Of a stretch of 12,991 nucleotides of DNA, positions 1-12,991 are shown piece after piece. Within the stretch, counting starts at the first letter, position 1; the number at the start of each line of letters is the position of its first letter. The DNA is from Gaeumannomyces sp. JS-464 (taxonomy: Eukaryota > Ascomycota > Sordariomycetes > Magnaporthales > Magnaporthaceae). The notes under the pieces are model-generated. The model saw only the letters and a program-made list of their open reading frames with translations. It made no database searches and had not been told where the DNA came from. The stretch covers positions 1 to 12,991 of the forward strand of contig NGZR01000031.1 of NCBI GenBank assembly GCA_002197995.1, read 5' to 3'. The translations under genes were made by a program, and so were the position numbers.

Positions 1-155
1 CCACGTACGCTCCGCTACGACTACACTACACACACTTACCACGTGTTCACACCACTTGGCACGCTCGACACTGGACTTTACTGGGTTCTACTACCCTACT
101 TGGTGGTCACTTGACGACCCCACACCTCACACTGGTTGGTGTTACACACGCACCT
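1..155 (-). CDS. cox3: Cytochrome c oxidase subunit III, exon 3, partial (left-arm copy)
   Basis: Read on the minus strand with AC taken as A, this is the start of exon 3. Conserved Cox3 words are visible: ALTPTIELG, QWPP with TGA read as Trp, NPFELPMLNTV and ILLSSGAT at the window edge. Cox3 is an integral inner-membrane subunit of complex IV. The exon starts at 155; upstream of it lies intron 2, which ends in G as group I introns do. The longer plus-strand copy is at 8228-8614. A one-base run error near 68 breaks the frame here, while the sense is clear from the family. Confidence 0.9.
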
Positions 156-198
156 CACCTTTACTTTGTACACTTACCTTTACACTACTACACGTACG

Positions 199-1790
199 CT
201 ACCACACACTACTACGACTTTACACTTTACTACTACTCTACACACTTTTACTACCTACTTTCTCTTTTTACTTCACTTCTACCCTTTTACTTACACTTTC
301 ACACCTCACTCTACACCCTTTTCTACGTTACACACTGGTCTTTGTTTCCTACTTACACTACACACGCCGCCACACTTACACACTCCTCACACACGTCTAC
401 GGGACTTTACACCTCCACTGTACGCTTACACACTTTTTACACACTACTACGGTACTACACTTTTACCCCTGACACTACTCTGACACACTTTTTCACACCT
501 ACCACACCTCCCCACCACACTCTGGTTTACGACACACTACTACCCTACCCACCACTTTTACACACGTTTGTACTTACACACCTACCCTAACACACGACGC
601 TTTACTCTCTACACTACTGTTGACGTTACACACACTACACACCCTTACACACACCACGTTTCCCCTACACTTTTGACACTTACGGTGACTTTTTTACACT
701 GCTACTACACACACACACACCCCTTCACGCGTCACGTACACACCCACCTTACACCCACGTGACACACGTCTTGCACTACTTTCTACTTTGCACACACTTC
801 TGGGCTTACACACCGGGCTCTACACGTCACGGGACACACGCTACACACCTTACACACTTGTCACGACTACTTTTACCCTCTACTTTACACTACCGGCTTT
901 ACACTACGACCACCTACTTCTACTTTACTACCTTCTACACACGACACACGACTGTTTACCCTTCTTTCACTTACACACGCTACTACACCTTCTTTACACA
1001 CACGTACACTACGTTACTACACTGTTTACTACGGTTACACTACGCGGGTACACTTACTTACACACACTGACTCACACTACACTACACGACTACTACACAC
1101 TCCTCTACACACCACGACGACCTCTACTACTTGACACACGACTTCTGCCCCACACTTTACGTTTACTTACCCTACCTCCACACACGACACCACACTTTAC
1201 ACTTTGTTCTACACCACGACGCGACGACTCTTTTTCACTGACACGACCCTACTTTGACACACTGTACGCTTTTACCCCTACACACGCCTGTTTTACCACC
1301 CTACGGGTCTGACACCTACACTTCCTACCTACTACACACCACCCCTTCTCCACTCACGTACACACTCTGTACACTACTACACTTACGGACTTTACACTCT
1401 TGACACGTACGACACACACACACACGACTTTTTGACTTACACTACTTCGTACTACTACGACACTACTTTTTTTGCACACACGCACACACGCCACCCACCC
1501 CCTACACTACCTACTTACCGGGGACGTACGACTACTACACCACGTACTTACACACACTTTTTACTTGGACTACTACTACACACACCCACACGTTTCCCTG
1601 GCTCTCACGACGCACCACCCTTACCACACTACTTTACGACACACACTGACACGACACCCGTCTGCTCGTTGCTCTTTTACCACGACTACTACGGACCTAC
1701 TCTGACTTTACGACTCCGCGACTTACCCACTTCCACTCCTTCACTACGGACTGACACTCTCTACACTGACTGTTACCTACTACCCCTCTA
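199..1790 (-). CDS. HEG2: double-motif LAGLIDADG homing endonuclease in intron 2 (left-arm copy)
   Basis: With AC read as A and TGA as Trp, the minus strand encodes a typical fungal double LAGLIDADG protein. In order: an N-terminal stretch running through the intron core (RGSKSD, VKEQRADG), then SRLNPNYITGF and DGEGCF as motif 1, FQIGLHEKDLALLEQI, IIDHFNNYPLLTYK, LSLAFPDLEPV, then the second motif with TDAEG, and the usual end (KIIPIF, HGVKSLDFED). The stop is at 199-202. Several frameshifts interrupt this copy, for example GATTT for GGATTT near 1376 and a lost T before TDAEG near 735. The right-arm copy has full-length runs at these sites, so I read them as sequencing errors. Role: cleavage of intronless cox3 and possibly splicing help. 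Confidence 0.85.
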
Positions 1791-1913
1791 CTCACTTACA
1801 CTGACGGCCACCTACTACACACTACTTTCTACACTACTACGTTTACGTTACTTACGACGCTTTACGGGCTTACCCCGGACGTTTGGTTCTTGTTCACCAC
1901 GTGCTACACACCT
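1560..1913 (-). ncRNA. Group I ribozyme core of intron 2 (left-arm copy)
   Basis: On the minus strand, once the extra C is ignored, this region holds AAACTCCGGG, AAGCCCTAAAGC, GTAATCGCGGATC and GAGCAACGAGCAGACGG. I recognise this set from fungal group I introns whose endonuclease frame runs through the core. I did not fold it. The matching copy is at 6421-6720. Confidence 0.65.
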
Positions 1914-2069
1914 ACTGACACACACACACGCTCACGACACTACTACGCCACTACACACACACTACACGCTTCACGACACACCTACTACACCACACGACTA
2001 CCCACCCTACACACTTTACACTCCCTTTTGTACCACGCCACGACGTGTGGTCACCCTACACACACACGT
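1914..2069 (-). CDS. cox3: Cytochrome c oxidase subunit III, exon 2 (left-arm copy)
   Basis: On the minus strand this reads FLGDHTLAVQKG, then LFIVSEAL and MAIFWAFFH, a conserved central part of Cox3, with TGA for the Trp of AIFWAFF. Several runs are short by one base compared with the right copy at 6282-6420: five T instead of six before AGGTGACC, and losses around GTTATAG. The frame is therefore broken here but open on the right. Intron 1 is upstream (higher coordinates) and intron 2 downstream. Confidence 0.92.
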
Positions 2070-2345
2070 CACTACACTTTTCACACTACTACTTACCTAC
2101 TACTTGACTTGGACCTTTACTACTTACACTCACACTACGGTTTACTGACACACCGTACTTGACTCTTCACACCGTACACACGTCTCTGACGGGTCCTACC
2201 TACACGACTACTTTACTTCGTCTGTTGGTTCCCTGCTGACTACGCCCTACTACACACGACTACGGGTTTCCACGCACTACCACGTTACACACTTTACACC
2301 GACGGGCACCTTTTACTGTACTACACCACCGTACGCACACCACTA
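2070..2345 (-). ncRNA. Group I ribozyme core of intron 1 (left-arm copy)
   Basis: Read on the minus strand with AC as A, it contains AACTGTATGCTGG, ATCAGCAGGGAACC, TAGTAGGACCCTCAGAGAC and a CCTATCTTTATAGG stem. These are familiar elements of fungal group I introns (P4-P6 and P7 side). The same string is on the plus strand at 6001-6281. Confidence 0.7.
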
Positions 2346-2358
2346 CGCGACACTTACC

Positions 2359-3622
2359 TTACACTCTACGTTTTCCTACTTACACTTCTCTACACTTTTT
2401 ACACTCTACCCTTCACTCACGTACACGGTGTTGTTTACGACACACTTACTCACTACTTACTACACACCTGACACACCTCACTTTTACCACTACACCTACT
2501 CACTACTTTCTCACCCTACACTACACTGGACTACTTTACTCACACACTACACTTACACTTACACACACTGACTACTCTTACTCTACTACGACACGACTAC
2601 TGTACTACACACACGACTACACTACCTTCTGACTCTGGTTTTACTTACCTACTTACTACACCACTTTTACACACTTACGTACTCTACACACTACTACACA
2701 CGACTACACTCTCTCCACTACACACACGGTTTCACTACCTACCACACGACTGTACGGTTTACTCTACACCACACCGTTGACTCTACACTCTACACACCCT
2801 TACACACCTACTACTTTTCACCTTACCACGACTCTTTTACCGACGTACTCTGACTTTACCCTTTGCTTTCTACTACTTTACACTACCCACACACACTGTC
2901 CGTCACGCTTCGGTACACACCCACGTTACACTCACACCTACTTACTTACTTGACACACTCCGTCGCTTGCGCACTCCACACTACACACCTTTCACGACTA
3001 CTACGACTACACTACACACTACTTTACTCACTTACACACACACTTCACACTTACACTTTACTTACACACGGTTACTACTTTTACGGTGTTCTTACACTTT
3101 TCCACTGTACTCACACACTTTACTACACACACACGACACGTACTACTTTTTACTCTCCACACTTACTACTACACCGTACGACGTACTTTTACCCTGACTA
3201 CACTTGACACACGTCCTACTACCCACCCTACACTTCTGACTTGACACTACACACTGCACACACACACGACCTACACACTTACTCACACTACTGACGACAC
3301 GTACACACACCTACTTCTACGGACTTACACGTACTTCTACTTTACACGGTTGTACTTTCCTACACTGACACGGACACTACTACTACTGACCCACTCACCC
3401 TTCTACACACACGACCCACCTTACACACTACACTACTCCACACACTACACACTTACGGACTTACTTTTTACTACACACTACTTTTTACGTACGACACCAC
3501 ACGTACGACACTTACTACTACACACTCTACGTCTTACACTTTACACTTTCTTCTTTGGGTACTACGCTTTACGCTGTTTTCACACTACTCACACACGACT
3601 TCGACACTACTACTACGGCTGT
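2359..3622 (-). CDS. HEG1: LAGLIDADG endonuclease fused to cox3 exon 1 (left-arm copy)
   Basis: The minus-strand frame runs in from exon 1 without a stop (IIAEGT followed by AYIFESLILKT). It carries LAGLIDADG motif 1, SGLLEGDGHIYIP (about 3361-3415), and motif 2, a FTEADGHF word near 2895-2935. The end has FDKYPLLGEKYDS, ISKQHLTDEGRLKIREL and stop TAA at 2359-2362. In the left copy motif 2 has lost one T of TTTT; the right copy has all four. Codon TGA is used for Trp (KWVSVYN). An intron frame that continues its upstream exon is a common arrangement in fungal mitochondria. Confidence 0.87.
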
Positions 3623-3927
3623 ACCCCTCTGCTACTTACTACTCACCGGACACTCACACACACACGACCACTACGACTGACACACTTACGCACGTACTTA
3701 CACGCTACACTACTACACTGACACTACACTACTCCACTTACTTACACACTTGTGCACTACGACTACACGGCCCCACCTACGACACGTTACACACGCTACA
3801 CTACACGACTACTACCTACGACACTACTACACGGTCACACGGACGACACGGACGACACACCTACACTGACACACACGGACTGACTCTTGGACACACTTAC
3901 CTTCTTACCTGACACACTACGTCACAC
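3623..3927 (-). CDS. cox3: Cytochrome c oxidase subunit III, exon 1 (left-arm copy)
   Basis: On the minus strand it encodes the Cox3 N-terminus: SVRSNFQDHPFH, SPSPWPLY, SGALSMHNFNNG and FWFRDIIAEG. TGA is Trp twice. No ATG precedes RSNFQDHPFH in frame. TTG at 3923-3927 is the nearest plausible start, after a run of eight A and five T whose true length is uncertain. Upstream is the flank that leads to the palindrome tip. One-base losses in runs interrupt this copy, for example within PFHLV and SPWPLY. Confidence 0.92.
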
Positions 3928-4113
3928 ACACACTTTTTTTTACTTTACTACTTACTTACGTTACTGTACTTTTCCCTACACCACTTGGTTTTTACTACGC
4001 TGCTACTGCTCCTGACTTTACCTACCGTACGTACCTACCGTACGCGACTACCCACGGTACGCACACTTGACACACACACACTACTTACTTTTCACTTACT
4101 CACACTACGCTTC
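3928..4113 (-). other. Upstream flank of cox3 (left-arm copy)
   Basis: AT-rich leader between the fold tip and cox3 exon 1. I see no gene in it. Its one notable element is an 18-base perfect palindrome at 4022-4044. I cannot identify a promoter. Confidence 0.6.
4022..4044. repeat. 18-base perfect palindrome in the cox3 leader (left copy)
   Basis: Reading AC as A gives CTACGTAGTACTACGTAG, which equals its own reverse complement. The mirror copy at 4332-4353 has lost one T. It could form a hairpin in the cox3 leader or be a mobile palindromic element. Confidence 0.75.
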
Positions 4114-4170
4114 CTACCGACACGTACCGACACGTACCGACACGTACCGACACGTACCGACACGTACCGT
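4114..4170. repeat. Tandem repeat at the palindrome tip, left side
   Basis: One CTACGAA unit is followed by four GTACGAA units and a partial GTACG (in the text as given a 10-base period, gtaccgacac). It is the exact mirror of the TTCGTAC units at 4225-4270, with the same unit count. Confidence 0.93.
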
Positions 4171-4224
4171 ACTACACACGCACACGACACGCTACGCACA
4201 CGACGACACACACTGACACACGAC
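4171..4224. other. Asymmetric loop at the centre of the inverted repeat
   Basis: About 35 bases once expansion is ignored, rich in A and G (AAGCAAGAAGC, AAGAGAAAATGAAAG). The two sides do not pair with each other apart from a central GCTAGC, so this is the unpaired turn between the arms. It may be true hairpin-loop sequence, or poorly called signal at the strand switch. Confidence 0.75.
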
Positions 4225-4270
4225 TACCTTCGTACCTTCGTACCTTCGTACCTTCGTACCTTCGTACGGA
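4225..4270. repeat. Tandem repeat at the palindrome tip, right side
   Basis: Units of TTCGTAC, reverse complement of the left-side GTACGAA, ending in TTCGTAGG just as the left side begins with CCTACGAA. It marks the inner edge of the right arm. Confidence 0.93.
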
Positions 4271-4458
4271 CACGCTACTTGACTACTGACACACACTACT
4301 ACTTTTTTCACACTTGCTACCCTGGTACTCGCACCGTACGTACCTACCGTACGTACACACTCACGGACGCACTACGCACGCTACTACACACCACGTTACG
4401 GGACACACTACCTACACCTACACTACACTACTACACTACACACACACACACACACTTT
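4271..4458 (+). other. Upstream flank of cox3 (right-arm copy)
   Basis: AT-rich leader before exon 1, containing the mirror of the CTACGTAG palindrome (4332-4353), TAAATCAGGAGC and a long A run before TTTTTG. No gene, tRNA or clear promoter was found. Confidence 0.6.
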
Positions 4459-4728
4459 TTGACCTACTTTCACGTACACGACACGTACTTTCCACAGACT
4501 CACTCCTTTTCACTTTACGTTTCTCCTTCTCCTTGACCCTTTACTACTTCTACGTACTACTCTTTACTTACGCTTTACACCTCTACGTGGGGCCTTACTC
4601 TACTGCACCACACTTTACACTACACTGGACTACTTACTTCACTTACTACTTTACGCTTTACACTACCTGCTACACTTCACTCTACTGTCTTTTTGACTTC
4701 CGTGACTACTACACTACGCACGACGGGT
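4459..4728 (+). CDS. cox3: Cytochrome c oxidase subunit III, exon 1
   Basis: With AC taken as A, this reads SVRS, then FQDHPFHLVSPSPWPLY, LSMHNF, NNGYYSLYLALILLISS and MSFWFRDIIAEG: the N-terminus and first membrane helices of Cox3, subunit III of complex IV. TGA is read as Trp (SPWPLY, FWFRD), showing mitochondrial code 4. The start is unsure: no in-frame ATG precedes the conserved part; TTG at 4459-4461 is the nearest candidate. An in-frame TAA seems to lie upstream, but within an A run of unreliable length. The exon ends in GGGT at 4728 and HEG1 continues in frame. A one-base loss near 4490 and a short T run near 4618 disturb the frame; the left copy resolves the first. Confidence 0.94.
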
Positions 4729-5989
4729 ACCACGCCTACTACTACTTCGACACTCTTTGACTACTTGACACACACCACGCTACACACTACTACCCCACAC
4801 ACACACGACACACTTACACACTTACACGACCTACGACTTTACTACTACACTTCTACCTTGTTCTACCTACACACACACTACTTTACTACACACACACACA
4901 CTACACTTTACTTTGGACTACTTACTTTACACGTGGTCTTTTACGACACGGTGACTGGTCACTACTACTACACTTCCTTCACTTACGGACACACTACCAC
5001 ACCCTTACACACTACGACACTACCTTACACTCCTACGACACTACGTTTTTACCTTCTCACTACTTGACTACACTTTACGGTCTTTTTGCACTTTACTTCA
5101 CACTCACGACACTTACGGTGGTACTACGGACCGTTTTCACTTACTCACGGTACACACACACTACCTCTACCGTTACTACTACACTTGGACGACTACACAC
5201 GACACGGTACTACCTTCTTTTACTACACACTTTGACTACCACTGGACACACACTTACACGACACCACCTACACACTACACACCTTTACACACACACTTAC
5301 ACTTGACACTTTTTTACACTGACTACACACTACTTTACTTACTCTACTACTCTGACACACGTTTACTTGGACTGCGCACACGCGACCGGACTTTCACTAC
5401 ACTACACTACGTTGACTTACACCTGGTTTTACCCGACACGCTGACCGGACCACTTTTGGTACTTACACTACTACTACGACACACGCACACACGGTACACA
5501 CTCACGACTACCTCGTACACACACGACTCTGTACACGTGACAACACTACTTACGTTTACACGGTTTACGACTTACGACTCACACCGTTTGTTACGACTAC
5601 ACACCTACCACTCTTGTACGTACTGACACACCTTTTACTGGACGACGACTTACTCTTTACTACTTTACGACTACTTACACACACTGTTACTACACTACGT
5701 ACACACACACCCACGACTCACGACACGTACTTACTCTTTACCACTACTCTTCTACTACGACTACACGACTACTCACTTTACACTTACACTTACTTTTGAC
5801 TACACTACTCCACTTACTTACGGTGACGACACACTACTGACTACGTTACTGTACACACACTGACGTTTCACGTTTACTACACTACTGACTACACTTTCTA
5901 CACACACACCACCTTACCTGACTGACACGGTACGACTTACACACACACTTACGACGACTTACACTACGGACACACACCTACGACTACAC
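4729..5989 (+). CDS. HEG1: LAGLIDADG homing endonuclease, read in from cox3 exon 1
   Basis: The frame continues from exon 1 (AYIFESLILKT). Two LAGLIDADG motifs are visible: SGLLEGDGHIY (about 4930-4965), whose Asp is the expected metal ligand, and LTGFTEADGHFG (about 5417-5460). Between them are NRILNPRIVFTSHIDNLG and RYIIGDKEGI; after them KSDTRKRSVSE, LRFRLDQR, KPTSCSMKPFMERLSLYL, NYFDKYPLLGEKYDS and HLTDEGRLKIREL. The end is LD with TAA at about 5985-5989. Length is roughly 400 residues, normal for a double-motif enzyme. Likely cleaves intronless cox3 at the insertion site and may also act as a maturase. Run errors (for example AAAAACACC for AAACAACACC near 5900) break the frame locally; the left copy is intact there. 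Confidence 0.9.
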
Positions 5990-5999
5990 GTACACTTCG

Positions 6000-6281
6000 C
6001 TACTGTTGCTACCGTGGTTACTACCACTACACACACGTGCCCTCGTTACACACTTTACACCTGTACTGCTGGACACACCCTACTCTTTACTACGGGCTAC
6101 TCACGCACGGGACACCCACACCACGACCGACACTACACACTCTTACGTACGGACCCTCACGACGACCTTTACCGTTGACACGACTCACACTACCGTTTCA
6201 CTACACACCCTACTTGACTTACACTACTACACACGTCCACACTCACACTACTACGTACACTACTACTTGACACACTTACTG
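6000..6281 (+). ncRNA. Group I ribozyme core of intron 1
   Basis: After HEG1 come AAAAGTGCCCTCG, AACTGTATGCTGG, ATCAGCAGGGAACC and CAGAGAC with flanking paired segments, matching the usual P4-P7 words of fungal mitochondrial group I introns. The intron then ends at the exon 2 boundary. I recognised motifs only and did not compute a fold. Confidence 0.72.
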
Positions 6282-6420
6282 ACCTTTTTTACGGTGACCC
6301 ACCACCTCTGGCTGTACCACACACACGGGACTTACACACTTTACGGTGTTACTCTTGTTTACTACGTTTCTGACACGCTTTACTTTTTTACTGGCTACTA
6401 CTTCTGACGCTTTTTTCACT
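6282..6420 (+). CDS. cox3: Cytochrome c oxidase subunit III, exon 2
   Basis: The frame is clean when AC is taken as A: TFLGDHTLAVQKG, LNLGVILFIVSEALFF and MAIFWAFFH. These are strongly conserved central Cox3 residues, including the SEALFF and AIFWAFFH helix. Trp is TGA in AIFWAFF. The exon ends at CAT (6420); the Ser of the conserved FFHSAL follows after intron 2. This copy has the full-length runs that the left copy at 1914-2069 lacks. Confidence 0.95.
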
Positions 6421-6720
6421 ACGTTTACGCACCTGTGACACCACACGACACCCACACCTCCGGGTACACGCCCTACACACGCTCTACACTACACCTACAC
6501 ACCTACTACTTTACGACACACTACTTTACTACGTGGCCTCACTTACACTGACTACGACGGGTACTACGTACACCACTCACTTACGACGACTTCACTCCTA
6601 CTGACACGGACTGGACACTGGGTACACTCGCGGACTCTACACTCACGACTACGTCCTACTACTCTGTACACACGACGCACACCGACGCACGACCGGTTCT
6701 TCACACTACTTTCTACACAC
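6421..6720 (+). ncRNA. Group I ribozyme core of intron 2
   Basis: Contains CAACTCCGGG (a run of A shorter than in the left copy), AAGCCCTAAAGC, GGGTAATCGCGGATC and GAGCAACGAGCAGACGG. This is the typical core of fungal introns whose endonuclease N-terminus is translated through the core. Confidence 0.68.
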
Positions 6721-8175
6721 TACTTGTACACGGTGTGCTCTGACGACGCCACGGGACACACCTTGGTTTTTACTACTACTCCACACTACACACACACACT
6801 TTACACTACCTGTTACTACTACCTCCCCGTACACTACGTACTTACGGGTGGTGGCTTTGCTTTTGCTACACACACACACACTACTTCTACTACTACCGAC
6901 ACTACTTACACTCACACACACTCTTTTTTTCTACCTTCACACGACTTACACACTCCTACACTTACTACTTACACGGACTTACCTGACTGGACGACACGGG
7001 TGTTTTACTACGTACGGACACTTACGTTCACGACCCCTACGGTGTACACACCACGGCTTTACGGGTACACACACGCTACCACTTTCACACACTACGGTCT
7101 TCACTGACACACACACGACTCTCGCTCTGTTACGACACCACACACTTACACACTTGTTCTTTGGACGTACGGTACTACTACACCTACACACTTGGGGGCA
7201 CGACACTCTTTTCACACTACTACGACGTCTCTGGTTTACGACGGACTTTACTACTCTTACTTACTTGACTCACTTTTACACTACACTTACCCCGCTACTT
7301 ACACCCTACTACACACCACTTACTACCTACTTTACCTTTTTACACGACACGTTACTACGCTTTACACTGACACGACACGGTACACACACTCTTTCTTTAC
7401 GACACGGTACTACACACTACGACACTACGTGTCTACTTACACACGCCGTACTTACACACTACGACGGTACACACACTACTCTGACCACACTTTACACGTT
7501 TACGCTTTCCCTGACCTTACGACGCCCGTTTTACACGCCCACGACACTTTGCACACACTACGACACACTACTGCACACGACCTTTCACCTGGTTACACGT
7601 GGTTTTACCTGACCGCTGACACGGGTGTTTTTTTACTACGCACTTACACACACACACTCACCCTACACTTCACACACACTTACGGGGACACACCTGTTTG
7701 ACTTACACGGTTACTTTTACACCTCACACACTACTTACGACGACTACACACGCTCTTTTACGGTACGTTTACACTACCACACACCTTACACACACTGTGG
7801 TACGGTACTACTTTCTACACACCACGACTTGTGGGGACGTTTGTACGTTGACACACACACTTTTCACGACTACTTCACGGGTACACACACTTACTACCCT
7901 ACTACTTTGACACACACTTTACACGCTACCACTGGACGTTACACACTCCCTACGACCTTTGACGGACTTTACACGTTGGCGGCTTTACTTACACTACGGA
8001 CACACACACACGACCCACTTTACACCTACGACACACGGGTTACGACTGACGTTGACACACTTACACTACACACACGGTACGACACTGACACTACACACAC
8101 GACGACACACACTACGTACTACACACACTTTACGACTACTACTACACACACTTACACACTCTACTACTTTGTACG
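6556..8175 (+). CDS. HEG2: double-motif LAGLIDADG homing endonuclease of intron 2
   Basis: Order of recognisable parts: RDSSYEGWN, EQRADGSSIFLNIVRCALRA and TWF (core-spanning N-terminus, also seen in many fungal intron proteins); FFSTSRLNPNYITGF with DGEGCFIVGIS (motif 1, about 6962-7020); VKATFQIGLHEKDLALLEQI, LFFGVG, DLYLIIDHFNNYPLLTYK; INRIVSIKAVLNRG, LSLAFPDLEPV; FHWLSGFTDAEG (motif 2, about 7577-7624); IRDKALLGSLIQTLKCGRYIS, KIIPIF, LHGVKSLDFED, KKDHLTRKGLDEL and stop TAG at 8172-8175. Start codon not resolved. This copy has intact runs where the left copy is broken (GGATT at 6970, TTTT before TDAEG) and broken runs elsewhere. The gene itself is probably intact. Confidence 0.88.
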
Positions 8176-8227
8176 CTACTACCTTACTACTTACACACGT
8201 ACACGTTTACCACACACTACACACGTG

Positions 8228-8614
8228 ACGTGCTTTACACCACCACACCCACTTGACGTTGGGGTCTCACACTGACCCACCCACACTACGGTACTACGAC
8301 ACCCACTACACACTCCTTCGACGCTGCCACTGTTGACACCACCTGTACACTTTTACTTACTCTACGCGGACGCTACCTGTGACCACTACTGCACCACCAC
8401 TACGCACTACACTTCACACGGTACACACACGACGACACGGACGCCTTACTACTGGTTCACGTTGCTACCACACTTACTTACGCTACTACACTCTTTACCA
8501 CGGCTTTCACACGGACACTACGACGTACTACGTGTACTCTTCTTTTACCTACTACACGTGACCGGTGCCTTTGGGACCTTGTTTTTACCTTCGGACACCG
8601 GGGTTCCACTGGCT
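8228..8614 (+). CDS. cox3: Cytochrome c oxidase subunit III, exon 3
   Basis: Encodes SALTP and TIELG, QWPPIGIEP, NTVILLSSGATVTYA, SIIQGKREGALYG, FTGFQGIEYSVSSFTISDG and CFYFGTGFHG. These are diagnostic Cox3 segments: the VTYAHH and GFQGxEY regions and the FYFGTGFHG helix. Small run errors occur (ACACAACC for ACACCAACC near 8240). The exon appears to end in GGCT at 8614, where the normal LHV is interrupted by intron sequence; the remaining residues resume at 12893. An alternative boundary is given under the mini-exon candidate. Confidence 0.94.
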
Positions 8615-9943
8615 TTGTTTCTACACCCCTTTTTTTACACACTACTACTTACGCGGTTCACGTACGGTTCTACCCTACCCGTTACTTTACACACTACACC
8701 TACTACTTACACGTTTACACCACTTACTACCACTACACGACTTCTACCTACTACGTACCTACTACCACACTCGACACGCTTTCCCCTTACTTGGGTTACC
8801 ACGGGTTTGCTGACCGCACGACACGGACACGTTTTACGTTTACACACTTACGCTACACACACACACGTACCCTCGACTACTCTGGCTGACACGTGTACAC
8901 TACCCACGCACTTTACGTACTTGACGTTGCACTACGCACACACGACCCACCACACTTACACTTACGACGACACACTACCACCTCCTTTTTGGTGTACGGT
9001 ACTTGTTACGTGACACCGTACACACGACCACGACACTTACTACGTACTACTACGTGTTCACGTCTTACCCGACGACTACTACACTTACACTGTCACTTAC
9101 TACCCTCACTTTTGACCACACACTTTCCTTTACACTTTCTCACACACACACACACACGCGGACTTACCCTTTACTTTACACGCGTGGTGTACGACGCTTT
9201 ACGCTTTACACACACGCTACACACTCTACTTGACGGGTACTTACGGGACGACTTACTACACGTCTTACACACGCTTCACACTGACACTACCCGGTTTACT
9301 CCGACACCACTTACACACACACCTCACACTTTCCACACCTGTACTTACCCTGTACCCACCGTCCACTTACGTCTGTTTTCACACGGGACTACCCTGACTC
9401 CTACACTTGACACTGGCACGGTTTTGTACGACTGGACGACGGGTTGTTTTTACTGTTACACGGTACACGACACACACACACTACACTGCTTACTTTACTG
9501 TGGGTACTCACGGTTACTTACTACTCACTTCTCTACTACTCTCACACCACCGCGACGACGACTGACGGCTTTACTGCTACACACTTACACTTGACCTACT
9601 CTACGGGTGTGGTACACGACTCGACGACACACGTGTCACACCACACGACCCTTCTACGTGCTACCCTTTGTTGTACTACACACACTTTACACTGACCGTG
9701 TACTGACTACACACTACACTCCCTTTTTCCACACACACACTTTCCTTTACCACTGGACGTACACACGTCTACTGGACTTGTACACACGACCTTTACGTAC
9801 CGACTACGCTGACGCTTACTTACACGACACTACACACTCCCACTACTACACCTCTTGACACGGTTACACACGACACGACTACACGACTCTTTACACACAC
9901 TCTGGTACTGACTACCTGGTACGACACCACTACTACACTTACG
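8615..9943 (+). CDS. HEG3: double-motif LAGLIDADG homing endonuclease of intron 3
   Basis: The frame runs on from exon 3 (FVSNPFF, ISGSVGS), then IQSKLSPYWVTGFADAEGSF (motif 1, about 8761-8835), SGWSVIPAFSIELHSKD, REIHSFFGVGTL, IIPHFDKFPL, SQKKADYLLFK, SLKASMNTGLSEHLK, RPLVCFQGIPDPNWMAGF with DGEGCFYVKV (motif 2, about 9408-9460), FSISQHARDEAL, LIDYLGCGKIEKVSTRPSS, KIIPFFQKFPLHGVKSMDF, IAELIKNKSHITLEGLKKI, SGM and TGRTYN with stop TAG at 9940-9943. About 400 residues, the size and order of the common double-domain fungal family. TGA codes Trp in DPNWMAGF. A few one-base run losses disturb the frame; there is no second copy in the window to check them. Confidence 0.9.
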
Positions 9944-9960
9944 TTACTTTACTCTCACTG

Positions 9961-10050
9961 CCCCTGACGCCACACACGGGTACCGCCTACCTTCGTACAC
10001 CGCACCCCTTTACCACGGTGTTCCTCTGCTTCGCACGACGCGACACGCAC
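9961..10050 (+). repeat. GC-rich double-hairpin cluster in intron 3
   Basis: A GC-rich island in AT-rich surroundings. At 9961-10020, AAAGGGT pairs with ACCCCTTT around a CCTACTTCGTAACG middle, and CCTG pairs with CAGG outside. At 10024-10048 two perfect overlapping hairpins exist: CTCTGC-TTC-GCAGAG and GCTTCGC-AGA-GCGAAGC. Such double hairpins are known as mobile elements in fungal mitochondria; the mobility is inferred, the pairing is seen. Confidence 0.75.
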
Positions 10051-10336
10051 CCCTCTGGTTACGGACGCACACGGCTACACTTACACACACACACACACTA
10101 CACACACACTTACGTGTACGGTCCTGTTTACACACTTTACTACACACTACACACGCTACTTTTACTTACACTTACACACCACGACACACACTACACACGT
10201 TACACTTGCACTGACACGACTCTTGACTTTTACCTACACTACTACACGTACACTCACACACACACTACTGCACGCCACACTACTTTTACCTACACACTTA
10301 CTGCGACACACACACTACTTTACGTGTTACACACAC
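10051..10336 (+). other. AT-rich intron 3 segment without a gene
   Basis: Between the hairpin cluster and the core motifs. It is A/T-rich with long A runs (about 10085-10105). I found no frame of note and no tRNA; it is probably a peripheral intron loop. Confidence 0.5.
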
Positions 10337-10437
10337 GGTTCACACCGACACTACACACGACACTTACTCTTTTGTGCTTTACCTTGACCTGTACTGTTAC
10401 TACTACGTTACACGACACGACTACTACGTCTGACACC
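10337..10437 (+). ncRNA. Group I core motifs (P7 strands) of intron 3
   Basis: GGTTCAACGA at 10337-10349 matches the conserved R element, and AAGATATAGTCTGAAC at 10415-10437 matches the S element; together they form P7 and its flank in group I introns. Their order after HEG3 is as in intron 1. Confidence 0.8.
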
Positions 10438-10520
10438 ACGTACTTGTGACACACTACCTGACACTACACACTACACTACTACTTACACCTTACTACCTAC
10501 TGTTACTCACTACTTACGTG

Positions 10521-10533
10521 TCACTGGACTTAC
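10521..10533 (+). CDS. cox3: Possible cox3 mini-exon or exon echo between introns 3 and 4
   Basis: TCATGGATTA after TTAGTG would encode His-Gly-Leu, the Cox3 residues between FYFGTGF and HVIIG. It resembles TCCATGGCT at the end of exon 3. It could be a tiny real exon, making the similar end of exon 3 part of intron 3, or a duplicated exon end inside a twintron. The exon borders at 8614 and 12893 already join without it. Chance cannot be excluded. Confidence 0.3.
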
Positions 10534-10860
10534 ACTTTGTACGTCCTACTACACACTTTACTTACTACTACACTACTTACCTACTGTTTCGTGCTTCGCT
10601 TACACACACGCACACTTGCCTTTTACTTGTTACACTACCGTCACGTCCCGCACACACGTCGGACGACCACTACTTACCTACACGACTACGCCGCTTCGCG
10701 GACGGGACGACCTTTACACTACGGTCGCCACACACGCACGCACGCACGCTACCACCTGCCCTACACACACGACACGGGGGCCGACGTCCCACACTCCTGG
10801 GTACGCTTACGCTGCGGGACACACGGCTGACGACACACTTACACACTACTTTCTACTCCC
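10534..10860 (+). ncRNA. Structured GC-rich 5' region of intron 4
   Basis: No protein frame of note. GC-rich hairpin CCGC-TTC-GCGG lies at 10691-10701, with a related GCTTCGC word near 10584-10590. CAGCAGCTACACTGCCC near 10737-10762 and GGGTAGCTTAGCTGCGGG near 10799-10818 could pair in part. CTGCGGGAAAGGC resembles the P4 side of a group I core. No tRNA cloverleaf was found. Confidence 0.5.
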
Positions 10861-12506
10861 ACACCACACCTTCTACCCACACGACACGCTACACTTCTTA
10901 CTTCTTTACGACTACGACACGACTTTACTACGACGTGACTTTGTACGGGTTTACCTGACTGGACGACACGGTACACTTTCCACCACTTACGACCTTACCA
11001 CGACTTTTACACACGACTACCCACACTTACTACACACTACTGCTCACACTTTACCACTTTCACACACTTACACTTTACCACTACACGGACTGACACACTC
11101 GACGGTTTTACGACGTACTACTTACACGACACTACTTTACACACTGTGGTCACTACTTTCTACACGTCTACACACACTACACACGTACACGTTACTTTTG
11201 TACACACTGACCACTACACACTTCACTTGTTACTACTGTTACTACACTACCCTACTACTTTACACTTACTGTGACACTCTTACACTACGTTCACACACAC
11301 TACCCACTCACTTTTACACACTTACTTTGACACACACGGCACGTCTTACCTACCTGACACACACTACACACTACTCACTTTACTCACGCTGACACGGTAC
11401 ACACTTGGCTACTTACTACGGTTACTACACACACACGACACACTGACCACGGTACTGACACACACTACACACTGACACTACCCTGGTTCTACTTACGTGA
11501 CTACGACACACTACTACACCTACACACTACTTGACTTACGCCGGACTTTACTTGACTGCTGACACGCTACCCTTTTCACACCTACACTACACACTACTGT
11601 ACCCTACGGTTTACACGTTGGACACACTCACTACTTACACGACACTTACGACGTTGTACTACACACACTACACACACGACACTTTACTTACACACCACGG
11701 TACACTGTTTTACTTACACCTACCACCCTACGACGACACCACTACACTGTCGACTACGTACACCTACCACACTACGTACTTACGACACACTTACACTACA
11801 CACACTACCACTGACACCTTACTACACACTACTTTACACTACCCCCTTACTTTACTGACGGACTTCTACACTTACTACACACGACACGGACGTACTTACT
11901 TACACACTTTTACACACACGCTACACACGACTTTTTCACTTACTGGTTACACACTTTGGTACGACTACTGTACTTACCACACACGGTTACTCACACCTAC
12001 CACCTCGACACGGTACACACTACCACTACTTTGACTGCACACTACACACACTTACCACCACTTACACTACACTACTACGACTTACACCACACCACACTGA
12101 CATACACTTACTTGGGTACACTACACACACACCGTACTTCACACTTGTTGACACACTACGACCACACTCTACTTACTCCGCACCTTTACTTTACTCTGAC
12201 TACGCCCTTACTGACGACTACACGACTCACCACGGGGGTACCGGTACTACTTACGACACACTACCGGACTACACACTTACGTACACGTGACACTCTGCTA
12301 CGTACTTGTTGTTACTACTACACTACACTACACCACACTACGGACACCACTTTACTACGTACGTACTGACGTGACACTGTGCGACACACGCTACTTACAC
12401 TACTCTCTACGACACACACACCTACTTACACACACACACTGTTTACACGTTCACGGTACACTTCTTACTACACACGGGTACTACCTTTTGTTTTACACAC
12501 TTACAC
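10861..12506 (+). CDS. HEG4: LAGLIDADG endonuclease with C-terminal NUMOD1-like domain
   Basis: In order: NNFYQEANSYSLD, FIEWFVGFTDGEGNF (motif 1, about 10920-10980), AQFTFQINLHKDEIEVLEYIK, KYHHFKLFEKA, YHLSAEGKLAIIGYKKEM, KYWLAGFIDAEATFS (motif 2, about 11521-11577), KYVPRFKLENHIKELELYK, GNVLLTTPRE, TTIVLEINKIHELK, LWLNLVDMYYKGY, LEGKYIFDAIKLH, LYLSDSPYEIRSQGVRYIRN, SECAKAINISRK with TIKKCLSSGNSYKGYTFVLN and stop TAA at 12502-12506. The last part matches the NUMOD1 pattern, a small helix-turn-helix-like DNA-binding module often added to homing endonucleases. In motif 2, EA replaces the common GEG, while the Asp ligand remains. Start not resolved. Single-base run losses break the frame at places. 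Confidence 0.87.
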
Positions 12507-12892
12507 TACTACGTACACTACTTACTACTACACTACACACACACTTTTTTTTACACACACGTTACACTACGCACACACAACGTCACTTTTCTGACTGTAC
12601 ACGTACACTGACACTACTCTTGTGCTGACGACACGTACTACTGTTTACTGACCACTACTACTACACACGGTCCACACCGACCTACGTCACACACACACTG
12701 ATACGTACGCTTTTGACCGACGCTCGCTGCTTACGCACTACACACGTACACACACTTGACCGTACACACGCTTTCACACTTACACTTGTTACACACTTAC
12801 TTTTACTTTTTTTTTACACCACGCACCTACACTACTACGACCACACTCTACACTCACACTGACACTACGACACTACTTGTACTACTCACTTG
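12507..12892 (+). ncRNA. Group I 3' core and tail of intron 4
   Basis: AT-rich, with GGTCCAACGACTAGTCA at 12669-12690, a clear match to the conserved P7 R element. The segment ends in CATTG at the exon border. No other gene was seen in these 390 positions. Confidence 0.72.
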
Positions 12893-12991
12893 TACCACCG
12901 TTACTACACTTGCACCACACTTTTTTGTCACGTGGCTTGTGACCGTACTACTACTGGACTACTCACGCTACACCTGACCACCCACTCACTT
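12893..12991 (+). CDS. cox3: Cytochrome c oxidase subunit III, last visible exon, partial
   Basis: After the intron, Cox3 resumes: HVII, then FLSVALWRIYGYQLTD and the start of the His-rich loop at the window end. This is the expected continuation of GFHG in exon 3 (family pattern GFHGLHVIIGT). TGA is Trp in LWRIY. Runs are short by one base in GGC and CTTTG. The rest of the exon and the stop lie beyond the window. Confidence 0.9.

Follow-up and report, generated by a model that had tools for sequence, protein, structure and literature searches.

Nearly every A followed by C: a probable sequencing fault written into contigs of a Gaeumannomyces genome assembly

Why would a stretch of fungal DNA carry a C after almost every A? 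The question is raised by contig NGZR01000031.1 of the Gaeumannomyces sp. JS-464 assembly GCA_002197995.1 (contig C25 below), whose whole length (1–12,991, forward strand) is the window analysed here. Dinucleotides with A as first base number 3,400 AC, 3 AA, 2 AT and 1 AG, so that 3,400 of 3,406 As are followed by C, the six exceptions lying at positions 589, 4496, 5542, 12102, 12579 and 12701. For comparison, C follows 9–26% of As in normal-text samples of the same assembly. The count agrees with an earlier reading made from the letters of this DNA only (the sequence-only reading), which had stated that A is almost always followed by C. We call such writing rule text, and the replacement of each AC by A its collapse; the collapsed window has 9,591 nucleotides and a G+C content of about 29%. 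The window is ordinary, cox3-bearing and likely mitochondrial DNA, and its extra C is artefactual, with no real biological feature behind it.

Collapse brings protein similarity to light. Ten fragments translated from the collapsed text with genetic code 4 (the two of at least 110 amino acids, and 8 of the 13 listed among 64 of at least 45 amino acids) were compared with Pfam. LAGLIDADG_1 was matched by six of them, one below its cut-off, and COX3 by two, one slightly below its cut-off; the remaining two had no match. By contrast, none of three long raw plus-strand frames (4,330, 4,330 and 4,133 amino acids) matched any family, which is the before-and-after pattern that the sequence-only reading had predicted for a code-4 search. 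The clearest COX3 match lies at 8413–8751 on the plus strand (E = 4.4e-14) and the weak one at 3341–3815 on the minus strand (22.8 bits, below the cut-off of 23.8). Pairs of LAGLIDADG_1 fragments occur on the plus strand at 7152–7680 (one of the two below cut-off), at 8967–9577 (E = 2.4e-9 and 9.4e-10) and at 10806–11416 (E = 5.9e-10 and 2.1e-5). The longest collapsed frame has only 131 amino acids, because other insertions and deletions still break the frames.

Two further statements of the sequence-only reading survive in part. Its conserved Cox3 and LAGLIDADG frames are borne out by the Pfam matches, but part of the LAGLIDADG content had been counted twice, since 2–8379 is a single stretch read in both directions. 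Its spurious long open frames are present with code 4, two plus-strand frames staying open across the entire window, but with table 11 no closed open reading frame of at least 400 amino acids was listed.

The window folds back on itself. Positions 2–6190 of the collapsed text match their own reverse complement at 94.9% over 6,323 columns, the alignment containing 55 mismatches and 198 gap openings; a minus-strand self-BLAST of the raw window returned no inverted match at E ≤ 1. Arm 1 occupies 2–4164 (minus) and is the first strand as read; arm 2, at 4222–8380 (plus), is the opposite strand of the same stretch. The stretch at 8380–12991 (plus) was read once, past the start of arm 1, and has no inverted partner (C after 1,211 of 1,214 As). 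The arms are thus readings of the two strands of one molecule, and their differences are independent errors.

This arrangement provides a direct test of whether the added bases were in the molecule. If the strands agreed on the inserted base, one arm would have to carry G before T at about 100%. Instead, C follows 1,080 of 1,081 As in arm 1 and 1,089 of 1,091 in arm 2, while G precedes just 126 of 1,113 Ts in the former and 149 of 1,096 in the latter. As both arms follow the A-to-AC rule and neither shows its G-before-T complement, the Cs were not in the DNA but were added to whichever strand was being read.

A normal copy of one rule-text sequence offers a second standard. Contig C28 is rule text, and a collapsed 373-nucleotide piece of it matches the chromosome contig C12 at 98%. 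Aligned to 1,501 normal bases of C12, collapsed C28 shows 1,455 matches, 45 deleted bases (about 3%), 4 inserted and 1 substituted. In the alignment of raw C28, C after A is the sole systematic insertion: nothing is inserted after any of 416 Gs or 295 Ts, whereas one C follows 349 of 443 matched As, with 87 As lacking a direct insertion and 7 showing longer or other insertions. A further 59 extra Cs are placed after C and presumably represent the same event shifted by one base, the true next base being C. Fifteen of the 37 deletion events are of a C directly after A, where an added and a true C would merge. Together with the COX3 and LAGLIDADG similarity and the palindrome, this locus sustains the claim of the sequence-only reading that ordinary DNA underlies the expanded text of the window.

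The rule extends well beyond the window. The assembly comprises 53.0 Mb in 34 contigs, all of which were sampled (the first 10 kb of C15–C34, the first 1.5 kb of C1–C14 and extra pieces of some). Twenty contigs follow the rule in every sample, C9 switches to it, and 13 are normal where sampled (two of them available in part only), chiefly at one end, which leaves room for an internal switch to rule text. Of the 21 rule contigs, which reach 88 kb, 11 carry A to AC and 10 the reverse-complement form, the mixture expected of a fault in the reads with contig orientation set by the assembler. Their collapsed G+C is mostly 23–35%, with C16, C19 and C28 at 54–58%. A collapsed 28S ribosomal DNA (rDNA) piece of C16 matches normal-text C10 at 97%. 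For the cox3 stretch tested, C9 alone yielded a normal-text copy and two other queries yielded none, in searches limited in coverage and sensitivity.

Contig C9 captures the onset of the rule. Rather than being uniform, it is normal text to about 10,600 and then shifts to rule text within about 2 kb. Along 10140–42999 the share of As with C next rises through 0.138 (10140–10600), 0.378, 0.694, 0.870 and 0.942 (12001–13000) to 0.999 (13001–42999), while in the transition the other bases gain few insertions, 0–5 per class. Against a fitted curve of the onset (624 As, 473 with C), neighbouring As behave independently at lags 1, 2 and 10. The pattern fits a per-base chance that rises along a read. 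The gradual change inside C9 and the two orientations across 21 of 34 contigs place the origin in the reads, prior to assembly. The sequence-only reading had suspected the source record of a substitution or format fault; these same two observations speak against that suggestion.

Fold-backs recur elsewhere. Of 12 rule contigs searched for self-matches, three have arms longer than 3 kb, at 94.9% (C25), 93.0% (C20, which folds back over almost its entire length) and 95.7% (C15). One stretch is covered by both C25 and C20, which fold at different centres in it, and C9 and C20 continue straight where C25 and C20 overlap. A natural palindrome or a linear mitochondrial terminus was considered and rejected, given that the fold centres of C25 and C20 differ within the same stretch. 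In the window, the spacer at the fold centre (4165–4221, no strand assigned; 37 nucleotides when collapsed) separates the arm ends and is possibly a degraded hairpin adapter. According to PMC6218980, missed SMRTbell adapters are a cause of palindromic reads.

The spacers were scored against the SMRTbell adapter. The C20 spacer scored 37.0, a value reached by 3 of 2,000 shuffles and 4 of 747 windows, and the expected adapter orientation outscored its reverse complement at all three fold centres. A tandem 7-base repeat, with about five copies per side, flanks the C25 fold centre (collapsed about 3040–3175, raw about 4100–4300).

From these observations we conclude that the fault arose, near certainly, during reading. 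Its dependence on the strand read, its specificity for A, its gradual onset in one contig and its origin before assembly are established. Very probably the letters were corrupted in sequencing, with C written after nearly every A, likely through a drifting A signal of the instrument. We infer that the platform was PacBio-type single-molecule sequencing, in which the A and C dyes are neighbours. Drift of a well's signal model or of the dye signal would cause each A incorporation to register first as A and then as the neighbouring C, the tail of the A pulse perhaps being called as a C pulse. A hairpin adapter corrupted in the same way might be missed by the adapter finder, which would leave both strands joined in one fold-back read. 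Affected reads would align with each other and not with normal reads, and the assembler may consequently have built separate contigs from them.

Three other origins must be weighed against instrument drift. That the extra Cs are truly in the DNA, whether inserted by a biological process or belonging to an unusual genome, might be suggested by so regular a rule in 21 of 34 contigs. It is refuted, barring a separate modification of each strand, by the two-arm test, where complementary strands of one molecule disagree at every inserted base; the C28 locus moreover exists as normal text on the chromosome, and cox3 and LAGLIDADG similarity is lost when the Cs are kept. We regard its chance as negligible. 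A software or file fault that swapped A for AC, either in the record or in reads after base calling, would account for an almost perfect rule, and a text replacement applied to a fold-back read would give the identical rule in both arms. It would not readily yield an onset that proceeds A by A over about 2 kb of C9, nor exceptions (six in the window, 24 of 1,844 in C28), nor 13 of 34 contigs that are normal where sampled beside rule contigs in both orientations, and we consider it very improbable.

The strongest competitor, though still an unlikely one, attributes the same kind of fault to nanopore sequencing: as the current drifts, A comes to be called as AC, and a fold-back arises when template and complement are read consecutively. 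Rule contigs of up to 88 kb, residual errors that are chiefly deletions, and collapsed readings that agree at about 94–97% all suit this explanation, as does the Oxford Nanopore Technologies (ONT) top adapter, which scored narrowly above 15 shuffles in 2 of 11 rule contigs. C28, on the other hand, has 1 substitution in 1,505 aligned columns, which is low for single nanopore reads as generally known, and the C20 spacer resembles the SMRTbell adapter. The low-substitution argument is not clean, substitutions being commoner in the mitochondrial readings (12–27 of 1,564).

Several results weigh against PacBio-type signal drift, the ONT adapter scores among them. A stochastic pulse effect would not be expected to reach a rate near 100%. 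The residual errors of C28 are chiefly deletions (the 45 bases of 1,501, against 4 insertions and 1 substitution), whereas raw PacBio reads typically err by insertion. The adapter score was not significant at the other two fold centres, being reached by 1,545 of 2,000 shuffles at that of C25 and by 296 of 2,000 at that of C15; in whole-contig scans the SMRTbell adapter exceeded the best of 15 shuffles in 0 of 11 rule contigs; and the adapter core, plain or expanded and with up to 3 mismatches, does not occur in the assembly. Gradual onset is seen in one contig only, C9. The match of C9 to C25 and C20 breaks off at a single N (position 10139), so that C9 may be a joined contig and its gradient might conceivably reflect consensus blending. 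Its autocorrelation is negative at lag 5 (1,980 of 2,000 simulations higher) and slightly positive at lag 3 (110 of 2,000 as high). Polishing with normal reads as the source of the C9 gradient is disfavoured because neighbouring As are affected independently at lags 1, 2 and 10.

Other observations concern the contigs more generally. Exceptions to the rule are commoner in C28 (24 of 1,844) and C20 (20 of 3,901) than in other rule contigs, and are scattered along the text. Left of position 10139, C9 is AT-rich normal text with no match of at least 250 bp to the other rule contigs tested. An expanded ribosomal RNA motif stands in C16 at 5088 and 16381, about 11.3 kb apart, as if two rDNA units were present in rule text. 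C1 starts with CCCTAA-type telomere repeats, which together with the assembly size and the LAGLIDADG-rich cox3 point to a filamentous fungus. The starts of C33, C32 and C24 are AT-rich, with few CA/TG and many CG/GC, possibly reflecting repeat-induced point mutation, and those of C24 and C32 are near-identical in composition. In the window itself, Rfam gave no match to the raw text, and no transfer RNA (tRNA) was found in the raw text, nor by a standard search of the collapsed text. A laxer mitochondrial search of the collapsed text returned two low-scoring tRNA candidates, which we do not believe; one spans the fold centre.

In this one assembly, 21 contigs, about 656 kb in sum (the normal part of C9 included), are corrupted where sampled. 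Such contigs escape ordinary similarity screens, as their long raw frames and their raw text match no known families; a dinucleotide count reveals them at once. The gradual onset is also a clear signature for instrument makers to seek. Two expanded 16S motifs gave no match among the genome contigs searched for the same fault, a weak test in which the first motif had a positive control (its shortened form was found at two places in C16) and the second had none. Among the titles listed in literature searches of open-licence PubMed Central papers none describes the fault, which is weak as an absence. We consider it an even question whether this is an undescribed failure of single-molecule sequencing: an A-specific drift that begins partway through a read, climbs from none to nearly all As over about 2 kb and hides the adapter, such that reads in a dialect of their own form contigs of up to 88 kb in a public genome.

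Three known systems invite comparison. C-insertion RNA editing in Physarum mitochondria likewise places an extra C in mitochondrial sequence, but that editing, as commonly described, is sparse and acts on RNA, whereas here every A is affected, on both strands, and rDNA and a chromosomal locus are affected as well. The familiar insertion errors of single-molecule sequencing share with the present case extra bases that are absent from the template; they are random and a minority, whereas here a single base type is involved, a single letter is inserted and the rate approaches 100% after onset. The closest likeness is to the palindromic SMRTbell reads of PMC6218980, which, like C25, C20 and C15, consist of a sequence and its reverse complement around a short spacer. 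Known reads of that kind are in normal letters, whereas the palindrome of C25 becomes visible only once each AC is read as A.

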